Virus record (IMG/VR): IMGVR_UViG_3300035698_021381
Coordinates: 1-52,497 of that record
Source of the DNA: a virus
Length of the DNA stretch: 52,497 nt
Reading direction: 5' to 3' (one strand)
Part shown: piece after piece, positions 2,989 to 42,907 of the stretch
Numbering within the stretch: the first letter of the stretch is position 1
How the letters are laid out: the number at the start of each line of letters is the position of its first letter
The notes under the pieces: generated by a model
The model's database searches: none
What the model saw: only the letters and a program-made list of their open reading frames with translations
Told to the model about the DNA's origin: nothing
Program-made: the position numbers and the translations under genes

Positions 2989-3000
2989 TTAACAAAAATT

Positions 3001-3110
3001 GTTTTGCTTTTTTGATTTCTTTCTTTCTTTCTTTCTTTGTTTTGTTTTTTGATTTCTTTCTTTATTTCTTTGTTTTGTTTTTTATTGATTTCTTTCTTTG
3101 ACTTTTATTC
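3001..3110 (+). repeat. Polypyrimidine TTTC-rich tandem repeat
   Basis: Three imperfect units of 28-38 nt start with GTTTTG at 3001, 3039 and 3072, each followed by a T-run, GATTTC and several CTTT copies. The complementary strand is almost pure purine. Units differ mainly in the number of TTTC copies, as expected from slippage. Noncoding in all frames; function unknown. Confidence 0.85.
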
Positions 3111-3158
3111 TTCATCTCAAGCGAGTGGAATTTTATTGGCAGAAAACTGCTTGCTGGT

Positions 3159-3207
3159 ACGGAGTGTATAAAATGGTATACAAACTAGGTTCGAATCCTA
3201 GCTCCGT
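3159..3207 (+). tRNA. Very short tRNA-like RNA (49 nt)
   Basis: ACGGAG (3159-3164) pairs with CTCCGT (3202-3207), and a perfect T arm CTAGG-TTCGAAT-CCTAG occupies 3185-3201. Only 20 nt remain in the middle, forming TGTATA/TATACA with a 6-nt loop. There is no D arm and no readable anticodon, so it cannot be an ordinary decoding tRNA. The acceptor plus T-arm domain could still be seen by RNase P, RNase Z, the CCA enzyme or EF-Tu. Its partner at 2928 has the same design. Confidence 0.4.
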
Positions 3208-3224
3208 CTTTATATATGGTTGCA

Positions 3225-3334
3225 GTAGCTGGTTAACCTGATAAGACATACGCAAAAGCTTATTCTAATAGTGAGTATAAATAACCTTGTGGTTATTTAA
3301 AAACAGCTACATCACTTAGAGTAAGCTTTTTTAT
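3225..3334 (+). ncRNA. Candidate pseudoknot RNA ending in a terminator-like stem
   Basis: Three helices are visible. A: GTAGCTG (3225-3231) with CAGCTAC (3304-3310). B: 3254-3268 (AAAAGCTTATTCTAA) with 3316-3330, 15 bp with one G-U pair. C: AAATAACC-ttgt-GGTTATTT (3279-3298), nested in B. The strand order A5', B5', A3', B3' makes A and B cross, which is a pseudoknot. B runs into TTTTTTATTT like an intrinsic terminator with a very large loop, so helix A could modulate termination. No known riboswitch or ribozyme is recognised. It starts 18 nt after the tRNA-like element and is probably on the same transcript. Confidence 0.55.
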
Positions 3335-3339
3335 TTAAT

Positions 3340-3486: not shown

Positions 3487-3699
3487 ATGTGTAATGATGC
3501 GTTTTTTACCACAGTTGTTATTTGTATATGATCATCACCTGTTATAGGCGTAAGTATAATAGGTAATATCCAAATAAAGAAATTAGAAGCACAAGTAAAA
3601 ATCTTAGAGAAAACTAATGTAGATCTTGCGATAGAGGTTAAGGTTTTAAGATCTGAGAATAGCGTATTAAAGCTTGTTAAAGATTTTAAGAAAAAATAA
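3487..3699 (+). pseudogene. Small membrane-anchored coiled-coil gene with one in-frame TGA
   Basis: From ATG 3487 to TAA 3697 the frame is open except for TGA at 3529-3531. The start encodes a membrane segment (FFTTVVICI, then SSPVIGVSIIG after the TGA), and the rest is a Lys/Glu/Leu coiled coil (KKLEAQVKILEKTN, VKVLRSENSVLKLV). The TGA falls inside the membrane segment. Translation could not restart before the helix without losing the anchor. A mutated gene or readthrough are both possible. Small anchored coiled coils occur in many phages (spanins, superinfection proteins), but nothing here picks one. Confidence 0.5.
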
Positions 3700-5268: not shown

Positions 5269-5598
5269 ATGTCAGATTTAAATGAGTTAAGATTTAAAAA
5301 AGAACTTAATGAGAGGTTAGACGAGATTAATGAGAGGTTTGAAAAACTTGTGAAAAGTCTGTCTTCAAGGTTTGAGTATATTGATCATAAGATTCAACAT
5401 CTCGGAGATAGTGTAAATAGTAATACCGAGTTTTCAAATACAAATTTTAAAAAGGTGCAGGTTTCTTATGAAAAACTGGCTACTACTTTTAGAGATCTTA
5501 TAGAGAATAATATAGAGGTTCGTGAAAAGTATATTCTAGACAACGGTGAAAAAGATAAGGGAGATATTAAGAATGATGATAACACTAAAAATTCATAG
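5269..5598 (+). CDS. Coiled-coil hypothetical protein (109 aa)
   Basis: Residues 1-60 are charged heptads (LNERLDEINERFEKLVKSLSSRF), a probable coiled coil; residues 60-109 are polar. No membrane segment or motif. AAGGAGAAATAAAA precedes the ATG. Its 3' end overlaps the next gene by 26 nt. Function unknown. Confidence 0.7.
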   Translation: MSDLNELRFKKELNERLDEINERFEKLVKSLSSRFEYIDHKIQHLGDSVNSNTEFSNTNFKKVQVSYEKLATTFRDLIENNIEVREKYILDNGEKDKGDIKNDDNTKNS

Positions 5599-6019
5599 TG
5601 TAATAGATGTTATAACAAATTCTTCTACAGAAATATTTATAGTTTATGAAAATAGTGTTAAAGATATAAATGAACTTTTACAAGAGATTTTAACCTTGTT
5701 AAATATAAAAAACAAAGTTTCCGATTTATTTGAGGTTAAAGGCGGTTATAACCAGGACCTTTACTATAATTATATTGAAGATGAGGAATTAGAGGGGTGT
5801 GAAGAGTTATTAGATGGGGACGCCCTTAAAGATCTTTTAGAAAATGTAGCCTTGGGAAGAATAGATAAACTTGAATGGATGTTCGATGCTGAGGAATCCG
5901 AAGATAACTTGAGATATTCAGAAATAAGTATTATTCCAAAAGATAAAAAATATAATAAACTTTGTGAAAAGATAAAATGCTTATTACATAATCTTAATAC
6001 AGAGGAATATTGTGGTTAA
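5573..6019 (+). CDS. DVITNSS-family protein, copy 1
   Basis: First of five tandem paralogs (5573, 6030, 7192, 8526, 9103). Each begins with a short K-x-H-S strand and the invariant DVITNSS[TN] (here KIHSVIDVITNSSTEIF), has a W-M/F block in mid-protein (LEWMFDAEES) and ends with KDKKYNKLCEKIKCLL. The start at ATG 5573 (or 5576) fits GGGAG just upstream and the length of the paralogs; a GTG at 5546 is further out. Function unknown; variation around a fixed N-terminal motif suggests a common fold with diversified surface. I believe similar NSS motifs occur in other large phages, but cannot check. Confidence 0.7.
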   Translation: MMITLKIHSVIDVITNSSTEIFIVYENSVKDINELLQEILTLLNIKNKVSDLFEVKGGYNQDLYYNYIEDEELEGCEELLDGDALKDLLENVALGRIDKLEWMFDAEESEDNLRYSEISIIPKDKKYNKLCEKIKCLLHNLNTEEYCG

Positions 6020-6746: not shown

Positions 6747-7202
6747 ATGGGTAATACAAAAATAGAATTTAGAGTTGTGGATATTAAGCTGGTTGAGGAA
6801 GAGCAAATATATAATGTATCAGGCAAGTTGTCTGCTATAGATTTTGACCACACCCTTCATTGTGTGTTGGAGGGTAATGAACTTACTTTTATTAAGCATG
6901 TTAGGACCCCTTATAGATCGTATGATGAGAAATTATTTACATCTGTATTAGAAGCTACTGATAATGTGTTAATACAAGAGGGTTTGGTGTCAGCTTCAGG
7001 TCAAAACTTTATTGACAAAATAAAAAATATGAGGGATTTTAATATAAATCCTAGTCTTAAGGTTGTCATTGATGTAGATGTTAAAAATGCGTTCTTACAT
7101 CTCGTAGATAGATTAGATGATATAAATGAATTGGGAATTTTTATGAAATGTGAATTAGATAAGTTTAATGGTCTTATGAAGGAGGATTGTGATGGAGTTT
7201 AA
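6747..7202 (+). CDS. Hypothetical protein (151 aa)
   Basis: Mixed alpha/beta composition with alternating hydrophobic strands (KIEFRVVDIKLVEEEQIYNV). AAAAAGGAA lies just before the ATG. No motif or membrane helix seen. Its last 11 nt overlap the start of the next DVITNSS copy, whose GGAGG lies inside this gene, so translation is probably coupled. Confidence 0.7.
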   Translation: MGNTKIEFRVVDIKLVEEEQIYNVSGKLSAIDFDHTLHCVLEGNELTFIKHVRTPYRSYDEKLFTSVLEATDNVLIQEGLVSASGQNFIDKIKNMRDFNINPSLKVVIDVDVKNAFLHLVDRLDDINELGIFMKCELDKFNGLMKEDCDGV

Positions 7203-7773
7203 AAGTCATAGTTCGGTTGACGTTATAACAAATTCATCTACTGTAATATTTACATATACAGATAACTCTGTTGAACCAGCTAAAGAGTTAATTAACTCTT
7301 TTTTAAAACTTTATTGTGTAACCGCTAGAGCCGAAGACATCTTCAAGTTTATAGTTTTGTGTGAGGAGCCTGAAAATTACTATCTATATCTAAATGAGGA
7401 TGTATTAGAGCCTTTATATACTGATTATGAGATGAAAGACATGAGTAGGTATGAAAACATTTTAATAAATTATGACGAGTTTTTAAAAAGAAGTGGTATC
7501 AAAAACAAGGAACAGTTCAAGTTCATGTTTAATTTTAAAACAATTTTTAGTTTAAACAGGCATGTCGAGGCATTGTACAAAGATATATCAGAAGGCGTAG
7601 AAGAAAAGCCAGCTTGGTTTAAAGTAGTTGAAGAGTCAGAAACCTGGCATGAGTATTATAGGCCTCCAACAAGATTATTTATAGTTCCTAAAGATGATAG
7701 GTATAAAGAGATAGCTAAAAAACTAGAAAAGTTTTTATATAGTACTAGTTCAGAAGCAACTAATGGATGGTAA
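7192..7773 (+). CDS. DVITNSS-family protein, copy 3
   Basis: Intact 193-residue member: KSHSSVDVITNSSTVIFTYT at the start, SVEPAKELINSFLK, then EEKPAWFKVVEESE around residues 140-153, and PKDDRYKEIAKKLEKFLYS at the end. ATG 7192 is chosen over GTG 7189 because GGAGG (7181-7185) is 6 nt away. About 45 residues longer than copy 1, through an acidic insertion in the middle. Unknown function. Confidence 0.75.
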   Translation: MEFKSHSSVDVITNSSTVIFTYTDNSVEPAKELINSFLKLYCVTARAEDIFKFIVLCEEPENYYLYLNEDVLEPLYTDYEMKDMSRYENILINYDEFLKRSGIKNKEQFKFMFNFKTIFSLNRHVEALYKDISEGVEEKPAWFKVVEESETWHEYYRPPTRLFIVPKDDRYKEIAKKLEKFLYSTSSEATNGW

Positions 7774-8109: not shown

Positions 8110-8529
8110 ATGAAAATATTATTAGAAAATAAGTCGAAAGACCTAATGGGTTATGGGTATGACTTTAGTAGAGGAATAAAAACTGTTTTTTGTGGATTAG
8201 AAGCACACTTAGAATATACTGGAGAGTCTAAAGGAGAATTAAAATTAAGGTTAAACGATGATAACGCTATAGCATTGTGTACAGCATACTTCACATATGT
8301 CGTCTCAAAGCCTTTAGAGATAGAAATAATAGATAAACAGTTTAAAAAGAAATTAATTTTCTATTGTGATGAGTGTTTGCGAATGATTAACCCAGAGGAG
8401 GTTAGATTAAAATTTAATAAAATAAAGATGGTGGACTTTCTTGATGGCCATAAAAACTCTAGAAAAGATGAGTTAAATAGAAAAGAATTATTAGAAGGTT
8501 TAAAAATGATCATGGAGGGTATAGCATGA
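8110..8529 (+). CDS. Hypothetical protein (139 aa)
   Basis: The N-terminus MKILLENKSKDL resembles the 3946 product. One CxxC (FYCDECLRM) lies about two thirds along. It ends in a helix (KELLEGLKMIMEG). Its TGA overlaps the ATG of the next gene (ATGA), so the two are coupled. Function unknown. Confidence 0.7.
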   Translation: MKILLENKSKDLMGYGYDFSRGIKTVFCGLEAHLEYTGESKGELKLRLNDDNAIALCTAYFTYVVSKPLEIEIIDKQFKKKLIFYCDECLRMINPEEVRLKFNKIKMVDFLDGHKNSRKDELNRKELLEGLKMIMEGIA

Positions 8530-9092
8530 TATTTAAAATCCACAGTTTTATAGACGTTATAACAAATTCTTCAACAGAGATATTTAATTACTGTTCGGGC
8601 AGTGTAGAACCAGCTAAGCTTCTTCTTAATGAGATAATTAAAGTCTTTGGTTATGATGGTGATTATACAAAATATTTCTATGTTTATGCCACTATTGATG
8701 GTTGGGATGTTAATACTGGCCCTATTGCGTATGAAGAAGGATATATAAATTATATTCATGATAATTTATATTGTTTATATGATGATTATAGCCACTTCAA
8801 TGAGGATTCTGGATTAGAATACAGGGCTACAAGCGATATAAATTTTATCTTTTGTGTGAGCAACTGGGATGAAACATTACAACGTTTACATAAAGATCTG
8901 CGTAAAGTTAAACTAGGTTTAATAGAAAAGCCTGAGTGGATGGAAGTGGTAGAAAATTTGATAATTAATGAAGATGAGGATCCAAGAAGTATAAATTTAG
9001 CAATAGAAGCGAAAGATAAGAAGTTTGAACCTCTTTGTAAAAAACTAAAACAGTTTTTATATAGCATTGATAAAAATACTGTACAGATGTAA
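8526..9092 (+). CDS. DVITNSS-family protein, copy 4
   Basis: Intact 188-residue member: KIHSFIDVITNSSTEIF at residues 4-20, SVEPAKLLLNEIIK, IEKPEWMEVVENL near residue 140, and AKDKKFEPLCKKLKQFLYS at the C-terminus. It starts inside the previous gene (ATGA overlap). The central domain is the most variable part compared with copies 1, 3 and 5. Confidence 0.75.
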   Translation: MIFKIHSFIDVITNSSTEIFNYCSGSVEPAKLLLNEIIKVFGYDGDYTKYFYVYATIDGWDVNTGPIAYEEGYINYIHDNLYCLYDDYSHFNEDSGLEYRATSDINFIFCVSNWDETLQRLHKDLRKVKLGLIEKPEWMEVVENLIINEDEDPRSINLAIEAKDKKFEPLCKKLKQFLYSIDKNTVQM

Positions 9093-24870: not shown

Positions 24871-26163
24871 ATGGCAAAAATATATCAAGAATTGCTAGGT
24901 AGACCTCGTGCAACGTTAGATAGTACTACAGACGATTTTAATCCAACAGCTCATCAAAGCACTCATGTTAAGGCTGGCGCAGATGAGCTTGATGGAGATA
25001 TTATAGGCATTGATTTTACTCCAGCTAACTACACTCCAACAGTAGTACCAGCAGAAGTAACTAACGTTGATGAGTTGACAGCTCATCTTGCTGGTGTTGA
25101 CGATGCAATAGGAACAAAATCTGTTATAGCACATGAGGCTTCTCATGTTAGAGGTGGGGCTGCTGAGATTGATGGAGACACGATAGACATTGATTTTACG
25201 CCTTCAAATTATACCCCTAGTATAGTACCGGCTGAGGTAACTAACGTTGATGAGTTGACGGCCCATCTTGCTGGTGCTGACACCGCAATAGGAACTAAAT
25301 CTGTTATAGCACATGAGGCTTCTCATGTTAGAGGTGGGGCTGCTGAGATTGATGCTGATTTATTAGATGTAACATATACTCCGTCTAACTATACCCCAAC
25401 AGTAGCACCAGCTGAGGTTACGCATGTTGATGAGCTTACTGCTCATCTTGCTGGTGTAGATGCGGCCATAATTAATCCAGCAAGTTTAACTGTGGAAAAC
25501 GGTGTCACATTAAATAACAGTGGTGGAGATAATGATGTTTTAATAAAAGGTGACACACAAAATTTATTTAAAACTGATGCTGGAAATGAAGAAATCTATA
25601 TTGGAGATGGTGGAACTACTAATTATGTGAAGATTAAATCTGACGGTGAGATAGAACTAAATGGGACAGCTAGAGTTATTAGGTATGACTGGAAAGATGC
25701 TGGATCAATAGGTTCTGCTGGTACACAACCAGCTAGTTTGACCGTTAATACCAATGGTTTTGCAGTTTTAGAATTTGTAGATAATTCTGAAAAGTCATGT
25801 CAGTTTAATTTAAAAGTGCCATCAACTTATGATACTTCTGCTGTGATTAGTGTATGTATTAGTTGGTCTAGTCCAGCAACAAGTTTAAATTGTGATTGGG
25901 AATTGCTTTATTTTGGCTCAGAAATAAATGAGTCTACTGAACAGGCTGGTGCACCAGCGCAAAGTTACGAAACCTCTTCTGCTACGGCTAACGGCATTGT
26001 TGAAAGCAATTTAACTTTGGCAGGTATTACAAATTCTCATGTGTGTGTTCATTGTATTTTAACTAGAGATGGTGATGATGGTAGTGACACATTAGGAGAT
26101 GTGGCTCATATACATGGTGTTACATTAAAATATACTTCTAATAAATTAGGGCAGGCTACATAA
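24871..26163 (+). CDS. Fibre-like virion protein with three 60-residue repeats
   Basis: 430 residues. Residues 27-200 are three tandem 60-residue repeats: AHxxxHVxGGAxEIDGD, then FTPxNYTPxxxPAEVTxVDE and LTAHLAGxDxAIG. H-A-S-H-x-x-GG-A-[DE] segments are common in phage tail fibre and collar proteins. The C-terminal 230 residues are beta-rich (INESTEQAGAPAQSYETS) and include GDVAHIHGVTLKY. Probably a trimeric fibre or head-fibre protein. Its last base is shared with the portal start. It lacks the LxKxA motif of the later virion proteins. Confidence 0.65.
   Translation: MAKIYQELLGRPRATLDSTTDDFNPTAHQSTHVKAGADELDGDIIGIDFTPANYTPTVVPAEVTNVDELTAHLAGVDDAIGTKSVIAHEASHVRGGAAEIDGDTIDIDFTPSNYTPSIVPAEVTNVDELTAHLAGADTAIGTKSVIAHEASHVRGGAAEIDADLLDVTYTPSNYTPTVAPAEVTHVDELTAHLAGVDAAIINPASLTVENGVTLNNSGGDNDVLIKGDTQNLFKTDAGNEEIYIGDGGTTNYVKIKSDGEIELNGTARVIRYDWKDAGSIGSAGTQPASLTVNTNGFAVLEFVDNSEKSCQFNLKVPSTYDTSAVISVCISWSSPATSLNCDWELLYFGSEINESTEQAGAPAQSYETSSATANGIVESNLTLAGITNSHVCVHCILTRDGDDGSDTLGDVAHIHGVTLKYTSNKLGQAT
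24931..25470 (+). repeat. Three tandem 180-bp repeats inside the fibre gene
   Basis: Units of 180 bp; units 2 and 3 share long identical stretches (for example GTTATAGCACATGAGGCTTC), while the edges differ more. Recent duplication or gene conversion is likely. Confidence 0.85.
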
Positions 26164-27905
26164 TGACACAAGATTATAAATATTTGCATCAAAATAAATT
26201 CCCTAATCCATTTTATGACATAGCTAGTACTTATATACCACCAGATATTAAAAAAACATTTGAACTTTGTGAGCATATTTATGTTAATGGTGGTATAATA
26301 CGTGGTGCTACATCAAGGTTAGTAAATTATTTTATTCAGAAAATAGAATATGGCGAGGAAACAAAAACTACAGAAAAGCTTAAGGAGTTTTTAGAAAAAA
26401 AATTAAAAGTTAGAAGCCATTTGTCAAAACTTGGTATAAATTATGTTGTTTATGGTAATGGTATTATAACAATGTATTTTCCTTTTACTAGATATTTAGA
26501 ATGTCCAAGTTGTGTTTTTAGAGTTAATTTATCTAATTTCAAATTAGATTACAAATATAATAAAGGAAAATTTGTAGGGGATTGTCCTAATTGTAATGCT
26601 AAAAATGTAACATTTAAGTTAATAGATCTTGACTTAAGAAACGAAGATAAAATTAAAGTTAAACATTTAAATGTGCATGATATTAACATTAAGAAAAATC
26701 CAGTTTCTGAAGAACATATATATTATTGGGATTTACCTGAAAGTTTAAGAGCTGGTGTTAAAGTAGACAAAGATGATTTTTATATAAAATCTACGAGAGA
26801 AGAAATGTTGTCTGCGATATCTAAAGATCAAGCTTTTCAAATTGACCCTAAATATGTATTTCATTTAAGCACATCTATAATATCAGGTTTTGAGGACAAA
26901 TGTGTTTGGGGATTGCCTTTATATTTAAACATAATAAAATTAAATTTTTATCAAGCTATTTTAAGAAGAGCTAACGAGGCTATTTCTATGGACTATTTAA
27001 TACCGTTGAGAGTTATCTCTCCAGGTCAAACTAGTTCTAGTGGTGATCCATTGTTACAGTTTTCTTTGAATAATTTTGCATCTAAGGTTGAAAGTGCAAT
27101 ATCTCATCATAGGAATGATCCTGCGGATTATCACGTATTCCCATTCCCAATAAATTATAATGCCTATGGTGCTGAAAAAAAAGCGTTGGATGTTACTCCA
27201 GAAATAAGATCTGTTATAGAGGAACAGTTGCACTCGTTAAATTACCCATCTGAAATTTTTTATAATACTTTGAATATTCAAGCGATGCCTCCAGCACTGA
27301 GATTATTTGAACAAACCTGGTGCGATTTAGTTGACGGATTAAACAACGCTCTCCAATGGATTGCTGATAACGCTTGCGATTTTATGGGATGGGATCGTCA
27401 ACAGGTGTCTATAACCAAAGTTACTTTGGCTGAAGACATTGAGAAACGACAAGTTATGTTAAATTTGGCCTCAGCACAACAAACATCTATGATAGATGCT
27501 CTAAAGCTTTATGGTATGGATTTTAAAGATCAAAATAAAAAATTGTTAGAACAACAAAAGATCTTAATGGATTTACAAAAAGATTTTCAATCGGATATGG
27601 AATCAGCAGTACAAATGGGTATAGAAAATCCAGCACAGGGAGCCAACTCAATTACAGATATAAATCAACAGGCTATGCAAATAGCAGCTCAGCTTTTAGA
27701 TATGCCTCAAGAGAGAAGGACTGCAGAAATGAGAAATTTGAAAAATACAGACCCTAACCTACATGCTATTGTTAAGCAGAATATGGAAAACACAAGGCAA
27801 ACTTCTAGAACAGAACATGGGTATGAGACTTTGTCTGCAGCAGGTATGACGGGCCATGAGCAAGCGCCCGAGCGCCCGAATAAAAAAACCCTAGTTTTTA
27901 ACTAG
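26163..27905 (+). CDS. Portal protein, with an inserted zinc ribbon
   Basis: 580 residues, a usual portal length. Portal-like features: an N-terminal region on crossing pairs (IIRGATSRLVNYFIQKIEYG), GINYVVYGNGIITMYFPF, then WGLPLYLNIIKLNFYQAILR, the late segment LNYPSEIFYNTLN, and a Gln-rich helical C-terminus. CPSC (about residue 117) and CPNC (about 143) form a zinc-ribbon insertion. The portal is the dodecameric DNA gate at one head vertex. No terminase gene is visible in this window. A strong terminator overlaps the last codons. Confidence 0.7.
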   Translation: MTQDYKYLHQNKFPNPFYDIASTYIPPDIKKTFELCEHIYVNGGIIRGATSRLVNYFIQKIEYGEETKTTEKLKEFLEKKLKVRSHLSKLGINYVVYGNGIITMYFPFTRYLECPSCVFRVNLSNFKLDYKYNKGKFVGDCPNCNAKNVTFKLIDLDLRNEDKIKVKHLNVHDINIKKNPVSEEHIYYWDLPESLRAGVKVDKDDFYIKSTREEMLSAISKDQAFQIDPKYVFHLSTSIISGFEDKCVWGLPLYLNIIKLNFYQAILRRANEAISMDYLIPLRVISPGQTSSSGDPLLQFSLNNFASKVESAISHHRNDPADYHVFPFPINYNAYGAEKKALDVTPEIRSVIEEQLHSLNYPSEIFYNTLNIQAMPPALRLFEQTWCDLVDGLNNALQWIADNACDFMGWDRQQVSITKVTLAEDIEKRQVMLNLASAQQTSMIDALKLYGMDFKDQNKKLLEQQKILMDLQKDFQSDMESAVQMGIENPAQGANSITDINQQAMQIAAQLLDMPQERRTAEMRNLKNTDPNLHAIVKQNMENTRQTSRTEHGYETLSAAGMTGHEQAPERPNKKTLVFN

Positions 27906-35206: not shown

Positions 35207-38200
35207 ATGAAACTTAGGGATTTTGATGACATTCCGCAAATAAGAAAAAATATTTATAGCTCTGTAGAAGAAGGTTTTGAAGGTCGTGAATTTGAAGGTA
35301 AATATGTTAAACTTAGAATAAAAGATCCAAAAGTTATACATAAAGAGTATACAAAAAAGGATGAAAAAAACGCAAAATTAAATGATTTGAGTTTAACGGT
35401 TCCTGTAAAAGGTACAATTGAGCTACTGGATAAGAATACTAACGAGGTCATGCAAAAGCGTAAGATGACTTTGGGTAGGTTACCCTATATGACTAATAAA
35501 TTTGGAACCTTTATCTCAAATGGCACAGATTTTGCTGTAGCCAATCAAATGAGGTTATTACCTGGGACGTATACTAGAGTTAAGCAAGATGGTAATATAG
35601 AAACCCAGTTTAATGTGCAGGGTGCCATGGGATTTAGATTAGGTTTAAACCCAGAAAAAAACACTTTTCATATACAAGCGGGCAATAACAAACTACCGTT
35701 ATATCCCTTCCTAAAACACACTGGCATTTCAGATGAAGAGTTAGACGAAGTCTGGGGTAGTGAGCTATTAAATAAAAATAAAAGTGATAGTACTGTGCCT
35801 GTATCAAGGTTATATAAGAAGCTTAAAGGTTATAATGCTAAAGATGATATACCGTTATCTGAACAAAGCTATGAGATTTTAGAAGAGTTTAAAAAATTAA
35901 AAATGGATCCTAAAGTTAATATGTTAAATTTAGGCAAACCTTATGATCAAGTTGAACCAAGAACATTATTAGACTCTAGTAAAAAGATTTTGGATGTGTT
36001 CCAAGGAAAAAAAAAGCCTGATGATAGAGACTCTTTGGTATATAAAAGTTTTCATGGAGTGGAAGACTTTATAAAAGAGCGCATCAATAAAGATGCTGGC
36101 CGAATAGGTAAAGCTTTAGCATATAAAATGGATACTAAAAAAGATTTAAGTAAGGTTCCATCTGGATATTTTAATTCTTATTTGCAACAATTATTAAAAG
36201 GTGATAGTCGGGCATTCCCAGTTTCAGAAATAAATCCTCTTGAACCATACGAAATGCTTTTTAAAAATATAGTTACGGGTGAAGGTGGAATAGGAAATCT
36301 AGATATGGTTACTATGGACTCTAGAAATGTACACCCTTCTCAATTTGGATTTATAGATCCTGTTCGTGGACCAGAGTCCGATAGAATGGGTATAGATACT
36401 AGAATGGCAATAGGTACTAAAAAAGGTGATGACAAAAAAATCTATGCTCCTTTTATCAATAATAAAACTAATAAGGTTGAATATTTAAATCCACAAGAAT
36501 CATATAGTAAAAAAATAGGGTTTCCTTTACATAATACTAAATATAAAAAAAAATTATATTATTTTGAAGATGGTGATTTTAAATCAACAAAAAATAAAAA
36601 AGATTTTGATTATGTGATACCAGATATGAAATATATGTGGGGTATGTACAGTAATCTTGTTCCCGGTAAAAACGGTGTTCAAAATAACAGACTTATGATG
36701 GCCGGGAAAGCTTTATCAGACACTCTTCCTTTTGTAGAGGCTGAAGCTCCAATCGTTAGAAACAAAATGGCTGAGAATGAAGATTTTGAGACATTTTATG
36801 GGAATAAGGTGTTATCTGAAACTACGCCTATAAAAGGTGTGGTCAAAACTCTTGATAAAGATTTTATAACCATAACAGGTGAAGATGGCAAAGACATTGA
36901 TATTGATTTATTTAATGAGTATCCTTTATCTAGAAAAACTGGACTACAAAACACGGCGGTTATAAAAGTTGGGGATTCTGTAAGTAAAGGTCAAGTTATA
37001 GCCAAAAGTAATTTTACAGATGATAATGGCACCTTATCTGTAGGTAAGCATTTTAACACCGCTTATCTTCCATTTAGAGGGATGACTTTTGAAGATGCTA
37101 TAGTTATATCTGAAGATGCATCTAAAAAACTTACATCAGAGCAAGTGATTAAATTTGAATTACCTTTGGACAACACTACTCAAATAACTAAAAACAACTA
37201 CATGGGTCAATTTCCAACAATATATGATAAAGAACAGTTTAGCACTGTTGAGTCCACAGGCATTAGAAAAAAAGGGGCTACTGTCAAAAAAGGTGACCCT
37301 TTAATTTTAGGAATAAAGGAAAAAACCTTATCTAGTACTGATTTAGCTTTTGGAAAATTACATAAAAATTTAGAAAATAAATTTGATGACGTTACGATAG
37401 AATGGGATCATGAAGAACCTGGAGAGGTCATGGAAACTATTATCACGGGTAAAAAAGCTAAGGTTATTATAAAAACTAAAACTCCTGCAAAAGTGGGAGA
37501 CAAATTGTCAGGAAGATATGGTAATAAAGGTGTTATATCTGCTATTTTTCCTAGAAAAGAAATGCCTCTGATATCTAGGACTGGTGAACATCTAGACATG
37601 ATTGTTAATAATGTTGGCACAGTGAGTAGACAAAATCCATTTCATGTACTAGAAGGATTACTTGGTAAAATAGGTAAAGAAAAAAATAAAATTTATAGAG
37701 TACCTGGTTTTTCTCAAGGTAATTTAAACGATTTTGTTGCTAAGGAGTTGAAAACAAATAATTTACCAGGTCAAGAAAAATTAATAGACCCTGAGTTAGG
37801 CGAGCTAAAATCTTTAGTTACATATCCTTACGTTTATAAATTAAGTAAGATGTCAGAAACCACTTTAGGTTCCAGAGGTCTTGGTGCGTATACATCAGAT
37901 ATGCAACCTTTAAAAGGGACGTTACATGGCGCCTCAGCAGGAACTATAGATTTGGGTTTAGATGGTCTTCCTCTTAAGCTTAAGAAAGCAGAAGGTGGGG
38001 CAGTTAGGATTGGGGCTGACTTATTACCCCAATTATTATCACACGGGGCTCGCCACAATTTAAAAGAAATTTCTACAGTAAAAGGTCAGAAAAATGACGA
38101 ATATTGGAGAGCTTTAAAATTAGGTTATCCTTTGCCTACTCCTGAGACACCGTTTGTGTATAAAAAATTTGAATCTATGCTAAAAGCTTCTGGTGTAGAT

Positions 38201-39646
38201 GTGAATAAGACTGGGGGCATAATCAATATTTCTCCCATAACGAATACTGATATAGATAAACTCTCAAATGGACCAGTTAGGAATTCAAGATTTATCAGAG
38301 CTAAAGATTTACAACCTGAAAAAGGTGGTCTTTTTGATTTTGGTATAACAGGTGGTCCTCATGGTGAGAAATGGTCACACATAGATTTGGCTGGGCAATT
38401 TCCTAACCCAGCAATGGAAGATTCTATAAAAACTATTTTAGATCTTAAAACCAAAGACTATTATGATGTTATATCAGGTAAAAAAACATTAAAAGATGCT
38501 CAAGAAGGTTTTATAAAAAGTTCAAGTTTCACAGATATGAAAACGGCTTTGGATAGTATTGATGTAGATTCAGAAATAAATAATCTCAAATCTCAAATAC
38601 CGACATTAAAAAAAACTTATAAAAATCACGCAATAAAAAAATTAAAATATTTAATAGGCATTAAAAATTCTGGGAAAGATCTTGGTGATCTGATGCTAAC
38701 AAAATTTCCAGTGATACCTCCAATATTTAGACCCGTTGTTATGATGCCTGATAAAGAAGGTGCTATTGTATCGGACGCCAACAAGTTGTATAGGGACTTA
38801 TTTTATGCAAATGATGTTTTAAAAGATTTAAAATCTGAAAACTTATCTGAAATAGATCTTGTTGATGAGAAGTTAAATGTGTATAATAGTATGAAAGCTG
38901 TGTCAGGATTAAGTGACCCTATAAGTGTTAAAAATAAAGAAACAGATGTTAAAGGTTTTATAAAAAAAATTACTGGAAAACAACCTAAAACTGGTTATTT
39001 TTTTGAAAAAGTTTTATCTAAAGCTCAAGACTTATCAGGTAGAGGTGTTGTTATTCCTGACTCAAGATTGGAGCTTGATCAAATTGGTATTCCAGAGGAT
39101 AAAGCTTGGAAAGAATATGAACCTTTCATAGTTAGAGACCTTGTTACTAAACGAGGAATACCAGCTTTAGATGCAGATAAACTTATTAAGGCTCGTGACA
39201 TTTTAGCTAAGTCCTCATTAGATAATGTTATGAAAGAAATCCCTATGATACTTAATAGGGCACCTTCTCTACATAGATATTCAATAATGGCGTTTAACCC
39301 TAAAATAAATGATCATGACGCTATTTCGGTTTCACCACCTATAGTAGGGCCATATGGTATGGATTTTGATGGTGACACGGCTCAAACATTTGTACCAGGG
39401 AGTTTGATATCTGCGCGTGAAGCAAAAGATAAAATGTTTCCTACTAAAAATTTATTTTCTATTAAAACATATAATGCTCACTATTTACCTCCGCATACAG
39501 ATATATTAGGTCTCTATGGGGCCACATCTAAAAAAGCTAAGGGCACAGCTATTAAGTATACCTCCTTAGTAGATGTAAAAAAAGATTTAGAATCTGGAAA
39601 AATAAATTATGATACAAACATAGATTTTGACGTGGAAAGGTTATAA
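35207..39646 (+). CDS. RNA polymerase: beta fused to N-terminal half of beta-prime
   Basis: 1479 residues. Beta features in order: LGRLPYMTNKFGTFISNGTD (residues 90-110), HFNTAYLPFRGMTFEDAIVI near 617, GDKLSGRYGNKGVISAIFP near 765 and EMP following. Beta-prime features then appear in the same chain: GLFDFGITGGPHGEKW, LNRAPSLHRYSIMAF, and the catalytic YGMDFDGDTAQTF with DFDGD at 1386-1390, which holds the metal-binding Asp residues. It ends 90 residues later. The rest of beta-prime is at 41099. The beta-prime N-terminal zinc finger is not seen. The location among tagged virion proteins suggests a virion polymerase, as in phiKZ-type phages; a late polymerase is the alternative. No alpha, omega or sigma gene is visible. 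Confidence 0.92.
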   Translation: MKLRDFDDIPQIRKNIYSSVEEGFEGREFEGKYVKLRIKDPKVIHKEYTKKDEKNAKLNDLSLTVPVKGTIELLDKNTNEVMQKRKMTLGRLPYMTNKFGTFISNGTDFAVANQMRLLPGTYTRVKQDGNIETQFNVQGAMGFRLGLNPEKNTFHIQAGNNKLPLYPFLKHTGISDEELDEVWGSELLNKNKSDSTVPVSRLYKKLKGYNAKDDIPLSEQSYEILEEFKKLKMDPKVNMLNLGKPYDQVEPRTLLDSSKKILDVFQGKKKPDDRDSLVYKSFHGVEDFIKERINKDAGRIGKALAYKMDTKKDLSKVPSGYFNSYLQQLLKGDSRAFPVSEINPLEPYEMLFKNIVTGEGGIGNLDMVTMDSRNVHPSQFGFIDPVRGPESDRMGIDTRMAIGTKKGDDKKIYAPFINNKTNKVEYLNPQESYSKKIGFPLHNTKYKKKLYYFEDGDFKSTKNKKDFDYVIPDMKYMWGMYSNLVPGKNGVQNNRLMMAGKALSDTLPFVEAEAPIVRNKMAENEDFETFYGNKVLSETTPIKGVVKTLDKDFITITGEDGKDIDIDLFNEYPLSRKTGLQNTAVIKVGDSVSKGQVIAKSNFTDDNGTLSVGKHFNTAYLPFRGMTFEDAIVISEDASKKLTSEQVIKFELPLDNTTQITKNNYMGQFPTIYDKEQFSTVESTGIRKKGATVKKGDPLILGIKEKTLSSTDLAFGKLHKNLENKFDDVTIEWDHEEPGEVMETIITGKKAKVIIKTKTPAKVGDKLSGRYGNKGVISAIFPRKEMPLISRTGEHLDMIVNNVGTVSRQNPFHVLEGLLGKIGKEKNKIYRVPGFSQGNLNDFVAKELKTNNLPGQEKLIDPELGELKSLVTYPYVYKLSKMSETTLGSRGLGAYTSDMQPLKGTLHGASAGTIDLGLDGLPLKLKKAEGGAVRIGADLLPQLLSHGARHNLKEISTVKGQKNDEYWRALKLGYPLPTPETPFVYKKFESMLKASGVDVNKTGGIINISPITNTDIDKLSNGPVRNSRFIRAKDLQPEKGGLFDFGITGGPHGEKWSHIDLAGQFPNPAMEDSIKTILDLKTKDYYDVISGKKTLKDAQEGFIKSSSFTDMKTALDSIDVDSEINNLKSQIPTLKKTYKNHAIKKLKYLIGIKNSGKDLGDLMLTKFPVIPPIFRPVVMMPDKEGAIVSDANKLYRDLFYANDVLKDLKSENLSEIDLVDEKLNVYNSMKAVSGLSDPISVKNKETDVKGFIKKITGKQPKTGYFFEKVLSKAQDLSGRGVVIPDSRLELDQIGIPEDKAWKEYEPFIVRDLVTKRGIPALDADKLIKARDILAKSSLDNVMKEIPMILNRAPSLHRYSIMAFNPKINDHDAISVSPPIVGPYGMDFDGDTAQTFVPGSLISAREAKDKMFPTKNLFSIKTYNAHYLPPHTDILGLYGATSKKAKGTAIKYTSLVDVKKDLESGKINYDTNIDFDVERL

Positions 39647-41098: not shown

Positions 41099-42907
41099 AT
41101 GCAAACTACAGTTGGCCAAGTTCTGGTAAATGCAGGCTTACCAAAATCAATTAGAGATTATACTAGAATTTTAGATAAAAAACAAGTGGGTAATGTTTTG
41201 CAACAAGTTGCTACAGATTATCCAAATGAGTATAAGAATGTGTTGAAAAATTTTAATTATGTTGGCGAAAGAGCATCATATTTAAATGATAGTGAATTTG
41301 ACATTAAAGATTTTTACTCTCCGATAGAGACTGATTCTTTAATTGATTCTGCTTTTAATAGCCTGTCAACCAATCCTTCAGATGAAGAATACATAAAAAC
41401 TTTTACAGCGGTACAAAAAGATATCGAGAGTAAAACATTAAAAGAAGCTTTAAAACAAGATAACTCTTTTGCTAAACAGGTTGCCTCTGGAGCAAGAGGT
41501 AAAGGTTTTCAGCTTGCTGCAACAATAAGCACACCTGTTTCATATGCTGATAATTTTGGTAAACCTATACAAGTACCAATAAGGCATTCTTATTCTGAGG
41601 GGTTAGACCCAGCTGAATATATCGCTTCTACATTTGGAGGTCGTAAAGGTTACTTAGGGGTTAAATTTGGAACACCTAAAGGTGGATATTTTGGAAAACA
41701 ATTAAGTTATGTGGCAGGGGATGCTGTTATAACAAAAGATGATTGCGGCACCAATAATGGAATTAGTGAGCCTCTTGATGATTCAGATAATATAGGTCGA
41801 TTCTTAGCTAAACCTTCTAAACATTACCCTGCTGGAACACAGCTTACAAATGAGAGTATTTCAGATTTGAAAAAGAAAGGTGTTACCCATGTTATTATAC
41901 GTTCACCTATAACTTGTAATGAGAATGTGGGTTTATGTCAAAAATGTAGAGGCCTTATAGAAAATGGGCAATTACCTCCATTGGGGGATAATGTTGGTGC
42001 TAATACAGCTGCGGCACTTTCAGAAGAAAGTATACAAGCTGCTATGGAATCTAAGCATACTGGTGGAGAAATAAGTGCTGTTGGTGAAGGCGATGGGTTT
42101 GAATTAATACAACAACTTGTTAAGGTGCCAACCACTTTTAAAGGTGGTGCTGTAGTATCAGAAGAAGACGGAAGGGTATCAAGTATTAAGAACGCAGCAA
42201 GTGGAGGTTACAATATCTTTGTTAATGATAAAATGCATTATTCTTTACCTAATTTTAAACTTGTTGTGAAACGAGGTTCTATTGTTGAGAAAGGTTCCCC
42301 TTTAACTGAGGGCATAATCAATCCAGCTGATATAGTTAGACTTAAAGGTTTAGGTGAAGGACGTTTATTTTTTAAAGACGCTATACAAGATAGATTCAAA
42401 AAATCTGGATTACGTTCTAATAAAATTCATTTTGAAACTCTTGCTAAAAAATTAGTAAATTTATATAGGGTTAAAGATAATAAGTTTTTAGGAGATAGTG
42501 TTCCTGGTGATATAGTTAGCGCCCCACACATAGAAAAATATTATAAACCTACAGATGTTGTTAGCATGAATATAGAAAATGCAAATACTAAATTTTTAGC
42601 AGAGAACACTTTGCATTATACTTCTGGCACTCAAATTAGACCTAGCACTATTAATTTATTAAAAAATAACGGTATTAATGAGGTTAGGGTTACAGATTTA
42701 GAACCCCCGTTTGAACCTGTTATGGTGCGCATAGACGATGTTCCCAAATATAAAGATGATTTCTTTACACAATTATATGGAACGCAGCTTAAAAGAAGAA
42801 TATTAGATGGTGCGGCTTATGGAGCAAAATCTAAAGAGCATAGTACTAGTTTTGTGACGTCATATATTACAGGTCAAGATTTTAAAACTCAAGGAGTAAA
42901 TTATTAA
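41099..42907 (+). CDS. RNA polymerase beta-prime, C-terminal half
   Basis: 602 residues. It opens TTVGQVLVNAGLP, matching the RpoC segment that follows the active-site region, so it continues where the fusion stops. Four Cys for the second beta-prime zinc site: DDCGT (about 216), ITCNE (272), GLCQKC (280, 283). The trigger-loop/bridge region AALSEESIQAAMESKHTGG (about 305-323) corresponds to the bacterial GEPGTQLTMRTFHTGG. ATG 41099 has a weak ribosome site (GAAAGTAAC). It must assemble with the 35207 product to form an active enzyme. Confidence 0.92.
   Translation: MQTTVGQVLVNAGLPKSIRDYTRILDKKQVGNVLQQVATDYPNEYKNVLKNFNYVGERASYLNDSEFDIKDFYSPIETDSLIDSAFNSLSTNPSDEEYIKTFTAVQKDIESKTLKEALKQDNSFAKQVASGARGKGFQLAATISTPVSYADNFGKPIQVPIRHSYSEGLDPAEYIASTFGGRKGYLGVKFGTPKGGYFGKQLSYVAGDAVITKDDCGTNNGISEPLDDSDNIGRFLAKPSKHYPAGTQLTNESISDLKKKGVTHVIIRSPITCNENVGLCQKCRGLIENGQLPPLGDNVGANTAAALSEESIQAAMESKHTGGEISAVGEGDGFELIQQLVKVPTTFKGGAVVSEEDGRVSSIKNAASGGYNIFVNDKMHYSLPNFKLVVKRGSIVEKGSPLTEGIINPADIVRLKGLGEGRLFFKDAIQDRFKKSGLRSNKIHFETLAKKLVNLYRVKDNKFLGDSVPGDIVSAPHIEKYYKPTDVVSMNIENANTKFLAENTLHYTSGTQIRPSTINLLKNNGINEVRVTDLEPPFEPVMVRIDDVPKYKDDFFTQLYGTQLKRRILDGAAYGAKSKEHSTSFVTSYITGQDFKTQGVNY

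Follow-up and report, generated by a model that had tools for sequence, protein, structure and literature searches.

The window, i.e. the whole stretch of DNA that was analysed, coincides with an IMG/VR virus record of 52,497 bases. Almost all of its genes lie on the + strand, as do the promoter, folds, linker and helices described below. It encodes a split multisubunit RNA polymerase (35207–39646 and 41099–42907) and a portal-like protein (26163–27905), both distantly related (approximately 25–33% identity) to those of Salmonella phage Arash and of Vibrio phages D69, D148 and D181. In relatives L013 and L014 and in Vibrio phages D181 and D148 the RNA polymerase beta gene was found to be broken by insertions of approximately 1 kb; in D181 and D148 the annotation places a homing endonuclease there. 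The element under study was located in a noncoding gap, with the upstream same-strand gene ending at 2795 and small downstream genes starting at approximately 3487 or 3711. The small reading frame 3487–3699 (70 amino acids) has an N-terminus that appears hydrophobic by eye and one in-frame TGA at codon 15, although TGA serves the phage as a stop elsewhere; a changed genetic code (TGA = Trp) was rejected, as TGA ends 8 of 59 long open reading frames. Three paralogous small proteins (5546–6019, 7189–7773 and 8526–9092) share the motif HSxxDVITNSST.

Within the gap, a near-consensus sigma-70-type promoter (TTGACT-16-TATAAT, 11 of 12 matches, with a TG ahead of the second hexamer) was predicted at 2887–2914, with a start near 2921. 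The 28-base motif around this promoter recurred at 1185–1212 and nowhere else in the window (0.01 expected by chance). Downstream of the predicted start follow approximately six bases, a first tRNA-like fold, a pyrimidine-rich repeat, a second tRNA-like fold and a candidate terminator. Fold 1 (2928–2988) consists of a 7-bp acceptor stem (U-G, then six Watson-Crick pairs), a T arm (GAAGG-TTCGATT-CCTTC) and a short hairpin (CATTG-TATA-CAATG) in the place of the anticodon arm. Fold 2 (3158–3208; fold energy z −2.8) has a 6-bp acceptor stem (ACGGAG/CTCCGT), a T arm (CTAGG-TTCGAAT-CCTAG) and a hairpin (TGTATA-AAATGG-TATACA) replacing both the D and the anticodon arms. The linker between the folds (2995–3112, repeat family D1) is a T/C-rich low-complexity stretch with TTTC-type repeats; part of it could pair with the region where the gene at 1527 starts, which may be mere low complexity.

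Both folds combine an acceptor stem with a T arm carrying a TTCRA loop, and neither has an anticodon arm with a 7-nt loop. ARAGORN called neither of them as a tRNA, and both stayed below the Rfam cut-offs, with fold 1 scoring 20.2 bits against tRNA-Sec and fold 2 scoring 16.8 bits against tRNA, each over its whole length. When the window was scanned for this architecture (acceptor stem plus T arm, no anticodon arm), exactly two instances were detected versus none in 60 shuffled windows. Applied to relatives (1.35 Mb, for the most part lacking clear tRNAs), the same scan returned three isolated matches, one of which (in L203) had GC-rich stems, and no paired arrangement as in the window. In 0.33 Mb of relatives' tRNA regions it returned mainly ordinary tRNA spacings and five short matches that are at least partly sub-registers of full tRNAs.

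The 3′ part of the gap had been described in the earlier note as a candidate pseudoknot RNA with a built-in terminator, made of three helices and a T6 tract, and the geometry of these parts was reproduced base for base. The first, crossing helix pairs GTAGCTG (3225–3231) with CAGCTAC (3304–3310) by seven of seven Watson-Crick pairs, of which four are G-C (stacking −13.2 kcal/mol). It crosses a 15-bp stem in which the 5′ strand AAAAGCTTATTCTAA (3254–3268) is paired at all 15 positions, with one G-U, to 3316–3330; this stem was also recovered independently (as I15), and only 3 of its 15 pairs are G-C. The 3′ strand merges into the T6 tract (3327–3332), four Ts of which are already paired within the stem with A3254–3257, and terminators of the A-tract/stem/T-tract type likewise have their T tract partly inside the stem. 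The stem encloses an apical hairpin (3279–3298), AAATAACC-TTGT-GGTTATTT, with 8 bp (3279–3286 with 3291–3298) and the loop TTGT. Two further pairings were found. A weak local hairpin at 3218–3238 (−3.4 kcal/mol) spans 3225–3231 of the crossing helix. An 8-bp nested extension of the stem, absent from the earlier list, has its 5′ strand at 3270–3277 and comprises 5 bp (3270–3274/3312–3316) and 3 bp (3275–3277/3308–3310) with A3311 bulged; it occupies three bases of the crossing helix (3308–3310).

These sequence elements are observed directly, and so is their non-random character. The fold energy of 3215–3335 was −34.0 kcal/mol versus −21.1 ± 3.2 kcal/mol for shuffled sequences (z −4.1; 0 of 200 shuffles reached it), owing to the nested pairs of the long stem and inner hairpin and not to the crossing helix. 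The strength of the latter was matched by 150 of 2000 shuffles (7.5%) when the whole loop was allowed and by 17 of 2000 (0.85%) when the unpaired loop alone was counted. All three helices had been proposed to be unlikely by chance; this holds for the long stem and the inner hairpin, while the 7-bp helix is marginal. Among the six stems of at least 13 bp in the window, only that at 3254–3330 is crossed by a helix of 7 bp or more, and one such combination was also found in 149 shuffled windows; since the spot had been picked beforehand by a reader, these statistics are post hoc and overstate the significance.

The element at 3254–3332 is probably an unusually long intrinsic (Rho-independent) terminator, which would end a dedicated noncoding transcript of approximately 410 nt with two tRNA-like folds, started near 2921 from the strong sigma-70-type promoter. 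A stable stem is followed directly by a T tract, and the long stem, the T tract and the position at the 3′ end of a noncoding gap with a predicted promoter all support the terminator part of the earlier proposal. The predicted structure would have an A-tract/stem/T-tract base with a stem of 14–15 bp, to which the extension adds 8 bp, and the 8-bp hairpin as its cap. The stem would close while RNA polymerase copies the T tract, so that the transcript is released; the RNA would thereby acquire a defined 3′ end that resists exonucleases, and the downstream genes would be insulated. Against a terminator stand the loop, which is large for an intrinsic terminator, and the G-C-poor stem, and a simple terminator scan with a loop limit of 3–8 did not list 3254–3332. 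Known intrinsic terminators with A-tract and T-tract share with it the GC-closed stem base at the A/T boundary, the stem running into T6 and the location at the 3′ end of a noncoding unit, whereas the stem at 3254–3330 is longer and more AU-rich, is capped by a second hairpin and possibly has a crossing helix upstream. Taken alone, such a terminator is ordinary; the noncoding unit that it would end is not. We infer that the promoter is used, that transcription terminates at the T tract and that the tRNA-like parts may be processed by tRNA enzymes.

Whether the crossing helix makes the 3′ end a pseudoknot was weighed by energy, as a helix that has been read by eye should be compared with its nested competitor before a pseudoknot is named. 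The two crossing helices have the geometry of an H-type pseudoknot with sterically sufficient loops (22, 35 and 5 nt), and such a pseudoknot could be functional: in the finished noncoding RNA the 7-bp helix would form together with the apical hairpin and the terminator stem, capping the 3′ end as a module for binding or stability. The full complementarity and stacking energy of the helix, as well as the low chance frequencies given above, speak for it. However, the nested minimum free energy of 3210–3335 was −35.3 kcal/mol versus approximately −25.9 kcal/mol for the pseudoknot, the latter a rough estimate calculated with Dirks-Pierce-type penalties and rough parameters, and with this rough penalty the nested fold is ahead by roughly 4–9 kcal/mol. 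If the 5 bp at 3270–3274/3312–3316 were retained alongside the pseudoknot, approximately −5.6 kcal/mol would be gained, but one nucleotide would then have to span the 7-bp helix, which is doubtful. Both strands of the helix also have local competitors (3218–3238 and 3275–3277). As the nested fold has the lower energy, the crossing fold is not the predicted ground state; of the pseudoknot proposal the crossing geometry stands, and the helix is possibly, at best, a transient structure, for example during transcription, or a minor tertiary contact. A functional pseudoknot cap is accordingly considered unlikely.

The earlier note had further suggested that formation of the first helix before the terminator stem decides termination, as in an attenuator. 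Transcription reaches 3304–3310 before 3316–3330, so the crossing helix could indeed form first. The two helices, however, have no base in common, so that they are not mutually exclusive and the 7-bp helix is not an antiterminator; competition is limited to the three apical pairs of the extension, and no antiterminator pairing with 3254–3268 or 3316–3330 was found. The RNA upstream is tRNA-like and not a known aptamer (no match in Rfam). Such a switch is therefore highly improbable, and the anatomy of the element does not support it. In class I preQ1 riboswitches the pseudoknot excludes the terminator through shared bases, whereas the helices at 3225–3330 share none, and no riboswitch of Rfam matched. 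A pseudoknot helix close to a terminator stem is nonetheless a likeness to preQ1 riboswitches, which are pseudoknots controlling gene expression (review PMC11625349).

With the terminator reading retained, the tRNA-like folds upstream could be decayed tRNA genes, processing signals or decoys. Phage tRNA operons such as that of Salmonella phage Arash likewise have tRNA T arms and acceptor stems within a phage noncoding region, but the folds of the window have no anticodon arm, no encoded CCA and no ARAGORN call. They may be remnants of phage tRNA genes that have lost their anticodon arms, with the terminator as the leftover end of a decaying operon. This is compatible with the terminator reading and is in keeping with ordinary tRNA genes above the Rfam cut-off in 27 of 48 RNA polymerase-related records and in phage Arash, and we regard it as a possible, though not the expected, origin. 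Against it, both folds have kept perfect T-arm pairing, acceptor stems of 6–7 bp and a well-paired hairpin replacing the anticodon arm, and no clear intermediate was seen in the relatives' tRNA regions. That the same half was spared twice with its pairing intact argues mildly against random decay. A different comparison is offered by tmRNA, in which the upper half of the tRNA structure is present (PMC3985003). The tRNA-like domain of tmRNA resembles the folds in having an acceptor stem, a T arm and a helix replacing the anticodon arm; unlike in tmRNA, neither a tag reading frame nor tmRNA pseudoknots were found in the phage unit, and the folds matched no tmRNA model in ARAGORN or Rfam.

Placed on one phage transcript with its own promoter, two tRNA-like folds that lack the anticodon arm could also serve as decoys or processing signals. 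Phage-encoded tRNAs reportedly counteract antiphage defence (PMC11555353), and one defence nuclease reportedly cleaves the tails of tRNAs (PMC12851939). As a hypothesis only, and one we hold to be rather improbable, an RNA of approximately 410 nt with two anticodon-less tRNA mimics, a pyrimidine-rich linker and a pseudoknotted 3′ cap might act as a decoy that diverts enzymes which bind or cut tRNAs (host defence nucleases, RNase P/Z, EF-Tu).

Relatives of the unit were searched for at the DNA, protein and structure levels. Rfam, at cut-off and with permissive settings, contained no family for the terminator/pseudoknot element, and DNA similarity to phages and to 21 RNA polymerase-related records was limited to weak, short matches. 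No relatives of the flanking proteins (1527–2795 and 8526–9092) were found, and an exact 29-mer from the 5′ part of the element had no match. A gapped pattern for the crossing helix matched two sequences, nearly identical to each other, in an unrelated context with a different fold. The gapped pattern for fold 2 had no match in viral contigs, and those for folds 1 and 2 had none in genome contigs. The promoter motif occurred in eight stretches of viral contigs; these carried no tRNA-like folds and showed no detectable similarity to the window at the DNA level. Thus no homologue of the element, the flanking proteins or the tRNA-like folds was present in the searched collections, which may omit records very close to the window.

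Within the window itself, the gap 1033–1526 contains the same promoter motif as that at 2887–2914 and an A-tract/T-tract hairpin terminator at approximately 1432–1462, and from this pattern a noncoding unit of like layout (approximately 1219–1462) may precede the gene at 1527. Its matching design counts in favour of the terminator and transcript proposed for 3254–3332. In this second unit (approximately 1185–1470) a duplicated hairpin (CCTGAATTA.../CCTGAGTTA...) was observed at approximately 1243 and 1314.
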